This document shows, piece after piece, positions 58,563 through 60,793 of a stretch of DNA of 64,000 bases. The DNA comes from Terriglobia bacterium. GTDB lineage: Bacteria > Acidobacteriota > UBA6911. Positions within the stretch are counted from its first letter, which is position 1. Every line of letters starts with the position of its first letter. Where the stretch lies: NCBI GenBank assembly GCA_020072565.1, contig JAIQGI010000020.1, positions 62,001-126,000 on the forward strand, written 5' to 3'. The position numbers were made by a program, and so were the translations under genes. The notes below the pieces were generated by a model. It was given only the letters and a program-made list of their open reading frames with translations, did not search any database and was not told the origin of the DNA.

Positions 58563-58748
58563 GGATGCCTCGTGCACTTGTGGGGAAAACAATAAAGCTT
58601 CGTCTCTATGTACCACAGTCTCAGACAGGGAACAAGTCGCAGAAATTCCGTGTCAGGAAACATAATCCCCAGGCTCGAGTCGCCAGGTTGACTAACGCGC
58701 CGCATGCGGTAGCCTTTCAGGCAGGGGTCATCTCAAGGAGTACCACCT

Positions 58749-59282
58749 ATGCATCATCGACTCGTGGCAGGTATCCCGTTGCTCCTGACCTGGAGCATTC
58801 TCATCGCTTTTGCGCAGCAGCCTCCTGCGAACCAGACCGGCACGCTGAAGGTCGGTGACAAGGCTCCCGACTTCAGCCTGCCGGATCAGGACGGCAAACC
58901 TGTGCGGCTTTCAAGCCTCCTCGGGAAGGGTAGAGTCGTCTTGGCGTTCTACGTTAAAGCCTTTACCTCCGGCTGAACACTCGAAGTACAGGGCTACCGG
59001 GATAATATGGACAAATTCCGGAAGTCCAATGCCCAGGTGCTGGGCATCAGTGTTGATTCCATCGCCGACCAGAAAGAGTTCGCCAGACAGAACAAGGCCG
59101 ATTTTCCCCTCCTGAGCGATTCCAAAGGCGAGGTTGCTCGACTTTACGGCGTGCTGAACAAGGAAAACGGCTTGGCCAACCGCGCAACGCTGGTCGTCGA
59201 CGCGCAGGGGAAGATCATCAGTATTGAGCTCGGCAGAAGCGCAATCGATGTGGCAGGAGCACTCTCAGCTTGCTCGAAGTAG
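58749..59282 (+). CDS. Secreted peroxiredoxin with an in-frame UGA at the peroxidatic position (probable selenoprotein)
   Basis: The frame begins with AAGGAG and a signal peptide (HHRLVAGIPLLLTWSILIAF), then GDKAPDFSLPDQDGKPVRLS and VLAFYVKAFTSG. Codon 76 (58974-58976) is TGA, and the same frame continues with TLEVQGYRDNMDKF, AQVLGISVDS, FPLLSDSKGEVARLYGV and NRATLVVDAQGKI to 59282. In relatives the corresponding motif is F-Y-x-K-A-F-T-x-G-C-T, so TGA replaces exactly the peroxidatic Cys and would encode selenocysteine. Total 177 residues. A 7-bp stem-loop starts 20 nt after the UGA. The N-terminal signal places it in the periplasm, where it would reduce peroxides. The selenocysteine machinery is not in the window. 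Confidence 0.85.
58997..59021 (+). promoter_or_regulatory. SECIS-like stem-loop downstream of the peroxiredoxin UGA
   Basis: CCGGGAT (58997-59003), an 11-nt loop AATATGGACAA, and ATTCCGG (59015-59021) form a 7-bp stem with one G-U wobble. The loop starts 27 nt after the UGA, inside the 16-37 nt window of bacterial SECIS models, and contains G residues, as SelB recognition requires. It lies within the coding sequence, as bacterial SECIS elements do. The structure is read by eye, not computed. Confidence 0.65.
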
Positions 59283-59959: not shown

Positions 59960-60613
59960 TCAATGAATGGGTGCGTGCGGATAGTCCTTCTCTCCGGCCC
60001 GGATCTGGATCGAGAGCCGGTTCTCCTCCGGAGGAATGGGGCAACTGAAGTCCCCTCCGTAAGCACAAGACGGGTTGTAAGCCCGATTAAAATCGAGGTC
60101 GTAGAGACCGGAGGTATTCTCCCGCAGGTCCAGATAACGGCCCGCCGCATAGGTTTCCTTTCCGGTCGTGGCATCTCGAAACGGTATGAACAGAGAGGGT
60201 TGCCCGGGATTATCATTGTCATCCAGGCGATAAACCTGCAGCCGGCAAGCTACTCCTCCGGCACGAAACTCGAAGTAGCCATACTTCAGGCCATCCCTCA
60301 CTTCACCGGTATTGGTAGCCATCCTGATGCGTTCAGGAACGGGGTAGCGGTTGAGTTGCACACGGAAACGCAGATCAGGGTTAAGCGGGAAGTATTCGAG
60401 GCCCTGGAAGCGAGTCCGGTCCTGTGCCGGAATGGGGGATTGAGGATCCGACTTGAACGCAATGTCCCGTTCTCTCCTGGCTCGCAACACAGGATCAACC
60501 GGCGTGGCCGGGGCTTGCGGGCCCTCGGCGCAAGCTGTAAAAAGGGCCGTCTCAGTAAGCAGTCCGAATGCCAGAACCCATAGAAGCGCCTTGCCGCACT
60601 TGGACTTCTGCAT
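59960..60613 (-). CDS. DUF1684 probable lipoprotein
   Basis: The 217 residues have a signal ending FGLLTETALFTAC, with an imperfect lipobox (FTAC), so the protein is probably lipidated and periplasmic. The mature part is the DUF1684 domain: FIPFRDATTGKETYAAGRYL, YDLDFNRAYNPSCAYGGDFS and CPIPPEENRLSIQIRAGEK, the family signature. The function of the family is not established. The ATG at 60613 has no ribosome site; instead TATAAT ends 7 nt before it (60626-60621), so the message is probably leaderless. Confidence 0.83.
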   Translation of the reverse strand: MQKSKCGKALLWVLAFGLLTETALFTACAEGPQAPATPVDPVLRARRERDIAFKSDPQSPIPAQDRTRFQGLEYFPLNPDLRFRVQLNRYPVPERIRMATNTGEVRDGLKYGYFEFRAGGVACRLQVYRLDDNDNPGQPSLFIPFRDATTGKETYAAGRYLDLRENTSGLYDLDFNRAYNPSCAYGGDFSCPIPPEENRLSIQIRAGEKDYPHAPIH

Positions 60614-60620
60614 GTGCAGT

Positions 60621-60626
60621 ATTATA
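60621..60626 (-). promoter_or_regulatory. -10 element for a leaderless DUF1684 transcript
   Basis: A perfect TATAAT reads on the minus strand 7 nt before the ATG at 60613, which places the transcription start at or next to the A of the start codon. A -35 of TTCGGG with 17-nt spacing is weak. Confidence 0.5.
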
Positions 60627-60793
60627 CGGTGTCCAAGCCCTTTCCCGAAGGGACGCATACCTTGTTATGATCCTGGCGGCGTGCCGATTCTGGAATGATG
60701 CGGATATCCCGTTCAGATAAAAGTATGAAAAAGGCAACTTTCCGAGACGGTTTTTCGTCTAATAAAGTACCCATTCAATAACCTCCTTCGTGG

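Follow-up and report, generated by a model that had tools for sequence, protein, structure and literature searches.

A peroxiredoxin frame interrupted by a single stop codon where the family carries its peroxidatic residue raises the question of whether the gene is decaying or whether the codon is read as an amino acid. In the window, by which we mean the whole 64,000-nucleotide stretch of DNA analysed here, such a frame carries one in-frame TGA, at codon 76, and is otherwise unbroken (Table 1). A preliminary description had regarded this TGA as the sole interruption of a peroxiredoxin frame, placed it at the position of the peroxidatic Cys and proposed a probable selenoprotein. These claims have held up: nothing else breaks the frame as far as the TAG, phmmer aligns residue 76 with CP, the peroxidatic Cys, of two solved peroxiredoxins (2ywn and 5epf), the in-frame UGA thus standing where homologues have Cys, and the selenoprotein reading is strongly supported by the genome's decoding machinery, by TGA-bearing orthologues and by selection. 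We conclude that UGA codon 76 is very probably decoded as selenocysteine (Sec) in a selenoprotein and is no sign of decay, and that the best explanation of the gene product is an exported selenocysteine peroxiredoxin of AhpE/BCP type, with export predicted from its N terminus.

Table 1. Features of the putative selenocysteine peroxiredoxin gene and its presumed SECIS hairpin, in window coordinates
Feature	Position	Strand	Basis or remark
Probable ribosome binding site AAGGAG, 8 nt upstream of ATG	58735..58740	+	sequence inspection
Sec peroxiredoxin gene	58749..59282	+	177 aa with Sec76; ATG at 58749, TAG stop at 59280-59282
Likely signal peptide; tentative cleavage site after AFA (residue 22)	58749..58814	+	sequence inspection, hydrophobic-stretch rule
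Val69 codon, place of Pro in Pxxx(T/S)xxC of peroxiredoxins	58953..58955	+	alignment
Thr73 codon of TxxU motif	58965..58967	+	T in 42/42 core-clade rows
UGA probably read as selenocysteine (Sec76), peroxidatic position	58974..58976	+	frame, structure alignments, orthologues
Outer stem 5' arm, presumed SECIS hairpin	58991..58995	+	weakly conserved
7-bp inner stem 5' arm	58997..59003	+	paired in 4/4 family members with the gene, one double change
11-nt apical loop AAUAUGGACAA	59004..59014	+	UGG kept in three TGA members of the family
Inner stem 3' arm	59015..59021	+	family alignment
Outer stem 3' arm	59023..59027	+	fold and family alignment
Arg145 codon, catalytic Arg of peroxiredoxins	59181..59183	+	by alignment; R in 41/42 clade rows, one gap
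Cys175 codon, the gene's only Cys codon, candidate resolving residue	59271..59273	+	translation and clade alignment

The source genome (G000; 7.46 Mb in 135 contigs, 98% complete, 3.8% contamination) encodes two selA, two selB and two selD genes, all over their family cut-offs. A tRNA-Sec model gave 10 matches in it, the strongest eight of which were typed with ARAGORN: the best is tRNA-Sec with anticodon TCA, and the other seven are other tRNAs. The set of genes that the preliminary description had proposed to look for (selA, selB, selD and the tRNA-Sec, here with anticodon UCA) is present in one genome. Among the 60 genomes searched (own included), selB was found at E <= 1e-60 in 54 and above its curated cut-off in 52. 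A genome-wide altered code was considered and ruled out, as TGA is an ordinary stop in G000, terminating 6 of 11 genes checked, each of them without internal stops.

The TGA is conserved among relatives. In 47 of the same 60 genomes the protein finds a match at E <= 1e-15, and each of the 12 near-full-length matches with at least 48% identity carries a single TGA, which falls on this codon. When named genomes were searched for peptide patterns that avoid the Sec site, at least 593 stretches with at least 577 relatives came up, the best-scoring 80 of which have TGA (59), TGC (18) or TGT (3) at the Sec-site codon. Within the phylum, 29 of 396 genomes carry TGA directly after the motif FYVxAFTxG, at 30 places and in 17 of 210 genera, and none of the 396, which are a sample drawn from a larger group, has TGC, TGT or TGG there. 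As the pattern includes the Val, it is informative on the codon but says nothing of the Pro, and it misses the orthologues of G004 (FYS, with TGA at the Sec site) and G005. The latter, which is split across two contig ends and reads FYALAFTGG followed by TGG, is the one orthologue in which the site carries another residue, the circumstance that the preliminary description had thought damaging to its case; otherwise both the UGA and the frame downstream of it are conserved in orthologues. One genome has the motif with TGA twice (G179:C8 and G179:C10). The G005 halves, L176 and L177 (at the ends of G005:C92 and C113), overlap by 14 bases, with the GG of the hairpin loop lost and the inner stem kept.

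Over the 100 codons that follow the TGA, the window and its G001 orthologue differ with pS 0.62 and pN 0.10, bearing out the earlier argument from downstream conservation against simple decay. A nonsense mutation or a miscalled Cys codon, for which one could cite the draft state of the assembly with its 135 contigs, is scarcely credible as the origin of the TGA, and we rule out a pseudogene or miscall on the strength of the TGA shared by all 12 close matches, the pattern test across the phylum and the strong purifying selection after codon 76.

In a 106-row tree, the window falls in a clade of 49 rows, all with TGA, on a branch of weak support (87/85); its 42-row core is better supported (98/95) and again has TGA in every row. 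The whole tree requires six changes between Sec and Cys, four of them forced by well-supported branches. The core rows are mostly Acidobacteriota, with Anaeromyxobacter oryzisoli (Myxococcota) inside the core on a long branch, and sequences of Rokubacteria and Betaproteobacteria are placed beside it. Left out of the tree were the truncated L145, the near-copies L028, L034, L035 and L036, the fragments L043 and L044, and G005; L110 was cut at +59, the codon at the place of its C-terminal Cys being unreadable and its frame continuing into the start of another peroxiredoxin.

What kind of selenoprotein this may be follows from its domain, its predicted fold and its active site. With the TGA translated as Cys, the protein scores 140 bits (E 5e-41) against Pfam AhpC-TSA, for which the curated cut-off is 26. 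An AlphaFold model, likewise with Cys at codon 76 and built on 32 sequences chosen from 48 (the window and 47 others), has a mean pLDDT of 90.9, falling to 56-69 over residues 1-30, and BcpB, Bcp1, Bcp4 and AhpE rank highest for it in Foldseek. The AhpC/TSA domain and the predicted peroxiredoxin fold thus place the protein in the peroxiredoxin superfamily, and alignment identifies Arg145 as the distant active-site Arg. The definitive motif of that superfamily, given as Pxxx(T/S)xxCP in PMC5302317, is only partly present: Thr73 is retained, Sec replaces Cys, and Val69 stands in place of Pro.

This loss of Pro extends to all 49 members of the clade. At position 69, 41 of the 42 core rows have Val and the remaining one Ser; all three Rokubacteria have Val, and all four Betaproteobacteria Ile. 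By contrast, 31/31 Cys homologues have Pro there, as do 23 of the remaining 26 Sec homologues (two of the others have Val and one has Cys), in a comparison that covers the homologues near enough to be picked up and is no census. Because the Pro of the defining motif is absent, peroxidase activity should not be taken for granted. Sec might be decoded in a protein that is no peroxidase and serves instead as a selenol oxidoreductase of a different kind, for example as an exported oxidase of thiols or as a trap for some other electrophile, a reading with which the contrast between clade and Cys homologues at position 69 agrees, as does the failure of the protein to reach the cut-off of any of the 13 NCBIfam families matched (the PrxU equivalog NF040737 gave 72.6 bits, under a curated cut-off of 270). 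We nevertheless consider this unlikely, since all core rows keep Thr73 and nearly all keep Arg145, the closest structural matches are peroxiredoxins, and the protein contains neither UxxC nor CxxC. From these sequence features, peroxidase activity of the Sec protein appears quite likely, and the protein is probably a homologous variant that acts like a peroxiredoxin.

Export is predicted across the core of the clade. By a simple hydrophobicity rule, which is not a trained predictor, a hydrophobic N-terminal stretch is present in all 42 core rows, with a Met ahead of it in 39, compared with 3 of 21 Cys loci. The preliminary description had called Sec peroxiredoxins with signal peptides uncommon, a view weakened, at least for this phylum, by these 42 rows, by the spread of the strict motif over genomes and genera described above, and by a second exported-looking example in the same genome, L057. 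Predicted exported Sec peroxiredoxins thus recur in Acidobacteriota. L057 (G000:C11:106488-106934), whose N terminus resembles a signal peptide and which has a Cys at +4, and L056 (G000:C8:99031-99414) are further TGA peroxiredoxins of G000. As ordinary annotation likely truncates such genes at the UGA, the exported protein may be absent from gene catalogues.

The preliminary description had also pointed to a 7-bp stem with a loop 27 nt after the UGA that, in its words, fits a bacterial SECIS. Both stem and loop are present (Table 1), with 27 nt between the UGA and the apical loop. A 57-nt segment folds at -16.5 kcal/mol (z -3.2), a value equalled by 1 of 200 shuffles; the first 50 nt give z -1.2, with 27/200 shuffles as stable, and 91 nt give z -1.7, with 10/200. 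The hairpin with its flanks reaches -17.8 kcal/mol, as low as in 1% of 300 codon shuffles. Within the window's family, whose members with the gene are the window, G001, G004 and G005, the inner stem pairs in all four with one double change, the outer stem is broken in some, and covariation over these four sequences is not above chance, its score being reached by 190 of 500 shuffles. The loop UGG is present in all three members with TGA but missing from G005, the member with TGG, a coincidence that hints at a SECIS role and, as a single case, is suggestive and no more.

The bSECIS rule, as set out in PMC13188914, asks for a loop of 3-9 nt, a G at loop position 1 or 2, a spacing of 16-37 nt and an MFE <= -7.5, although the same source mentions putative bSECIS elements that fail the model, and the rule is therefore not absolute. 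Like a bSECIS, the window hairpin is a stem-loop within the coding region, 27 nt from UGA to loop and with an energy well below -7.5 kcal/mol, but it differs in its 11-nt loop without an early G. The earlier claim thus stands as to a stable hairpin with a conserved inner stem and a suitable spacing and energy, and fails as to loop size and the early G. No strict-rule hairpin occurs in the window or in G004, and G001 satisfies the strict rule only through a different hairpin (-11.5). The sister clade has a canonical SECIS with a small loop, whose presence in the window was considered and ruled out, neither L025 (the window) nor L027 having a strict-rule hairpin.

That canonical element is well defined in the sister clade, where the typical fold is a stem with loop AGGCU or AGUCU, 22 nt past the UGA. 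In 43 distinct rows (from 46 distinct among 50, without the window, G001 and G004), codon choice in the SECIS region departs sharply from that elsewhere in the same genes: Ala is GCT in 24/25 cases (13% elsewhere), Ser TCT in 8/8 (4%), Asp GAT in 31/32 (40%) and Tyr TAT in 29/34 (28%). Covariation was assessed on 36 of the 43 rows, without Rokubacteria (3), Betaproteobacteria (3) and Anaeromyxobacter (1). In these 36 sequences 76.7% of cells pair, against 68.2% in shuffles, and 22 cells are changed on both sides, against 8.2; none of 500 shuffles reaches the pairing, the both-sides count or the covariation score, whereas the number of double-change pairs (4; 115/500) and of further pair types (8; 199/500) do not rise above shuffles. 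Columns 21 and 36 show G-C, C-G, A-U, U-A and U-G pairings, and in a sliding control the true register scores highest (0.166, against 0.125 for the runner-up), although kinship inflates such scores. The alignment thus establishes RNA constraint downstream of the UGA in the sister clade, in the form of a clear, covarying predicted SECIS. As implemented here, the bSECIS rule is passed by 33/38 sister-clade loci, by 31% of their codon shuffles and by 8/21 Cys homologues; since so many shuffles and Cys homologues pass, passing the rule alone says little.

Sec might accordingly be inserted in the window's protein while SelB reads something other than the hairpin at 58997-59021, insertion depending on some other structure or on a relaxed SelB. 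Such a reading draws on the large loop without early G, on the lack in both the window and G004 of any strict-rule hairpin and of the sister clade's AGGCU/AGUCU-loop hairpin, and on the rule-conforming hairpins that both of the other Sec peroxiredoxins of G000 (L056 and L057) possess. We think it possible though rather doubtful, given the inner stem paired throughout the family, a fold energy reached by so few codon shuffles and the fate of the loop UGG in G005. We read the window hairpin as an atypical SECIS, which offers a chance to test how far SECIS can drift.

The remaining question concerns catalysis after the first step. Of the 42 core rows, 41 have just one Cys beyond the Sec, at a distance of 96 to 108 residues, and none within the 40 residues preceding it; the exception is L110, where the corresponding codon is unreadable. 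We lean slightly toward a role for Cys175 in a resolving step, as its placement in the sequences suggests. In the mechanism that we propose, the ribosome would insert Sec at UGA 76 using SelB, Sec-tRNA(UCA) and the hairpin 3' of the codon, and the signal peptide would carry the protein out of the cytoplasm, where Sec76, flanked by Thr73 and Arg145, would attack peroxide and become a selenenic acid. Cys175 would then most likely bond with Sec76 as a selenenylsulfide, intrachain or across a dimer, to be reduced by some extracytoplasmic thioredoxin-like protein; no redox partner emerged from the gene neighbourhood of the peroxiredoxin. Alternatively, Cys175 may be no resolving residue, and the protein may, in the manner of AhpE, be a 1-Sec peroxiredoxin for which a small thiol or a partner protein is the direct reductant. 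This is a serious contender, if a somewhat less probable one: in the wider clade, the Rokubacteria (3/3) and Betaproteobacteria (4/4) lack any Cys after U, and AhpE, titled a 1-Cys peroxiredoxin, is among the nearest folds, but the near-constant lone Cys of the core, with its one exception an unreadable codon, argues for the resolving role.

Sec peroxiredoxins with a TxxU site are a known family (Prx), named in PMC1088965, PMC1794560, PMC2398784 and PMC13188914. The window protein shares with these (PF00578) TxxU at the peroxidatic site and the AhpC/TSA domain; its clade may be set apart from them by a predicted signal peptide, Val, Ile or Ser for Pro, and the lone C-terminal Cys. With AhpE of Mycobacterium tuberculosis and with BCP/PrxQ, its model shares the predicted fold (Foldseek E 1e-16 to 1e-14), and it agrees with the AhpE motif PxAF(T/S)xxC over the segment AFT and has, before U, the Gly described for PrxQ, both as given in PMC5302317. 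It differs from these proteins in having Sec for Cys, no Pro, a predicted export signal and a C-terminal Cys. Exported or proline-less Sec peroxiredoxins were not found as a topic in the titles and partial abstracts of the open-licence papers that the searches listed. On its sequence features, the Pro-less, C-terminal-Cys clade with predicted export is a distinct variant of the known Sec Prx.

Why selenium stays at some sites and yields to sulphur at others is a long-standing question. This clade keeps Sec, with no Cys exchange in 49 rows, together with the loss of a residue of the defining motif, and because it keeps Sec without the motif Pro, the dependence of catalysis on Sec should be testable by U76C, V69P and C175S. 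We tentatively hypothesize, with a real if not quite even chance of being right, that the clade is a lineage of exported peroxiredoxins in its own right, dependent on Sec, where selenium has made the near-universal Pro dispensable: Cys reversion would not occur because the Pro-less site works only with a selenol, the C-terminal Cys would resolve via a selenenylsulfide, and the window's branch would have remodelled its SECIS into a large-loop hairpin accepted by its SelB.

Several observations bear on the wider genome. Besides a dispersed first set of Sec genes, G000 has a second cluster, selA-selD-selB with a 4Fe-4S protein (L055:6659-12946; G000:C19 at about 226.7-232.9 kb), in whose stretch no tRNA genes were found. 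As the beginning of L055 matches G001 with 81% identity across 825 bases, this contig probably belongs to the G000 genome; only one selB was found in G001, and a related second cluster occurs in G006, its selB 38% identical. The SelD encoded at L055:9735-11438 (- strand) bears a C-terminal carboxymuconolactone decarboxylase (AhpD-type) domain with a CxxC; PMC2398784 names SelD fusions with Ndh and NifS. Near the peroxiredoxin gene, 0.7 kb away, lies a DUF1684 gene (59960-60658, - strand), which is also within 0.7 kb of the orthologue in G001 and about 2.6 kb from that in G004, and a DUF1684-like gene also stands beside the second selB cluster of G006.
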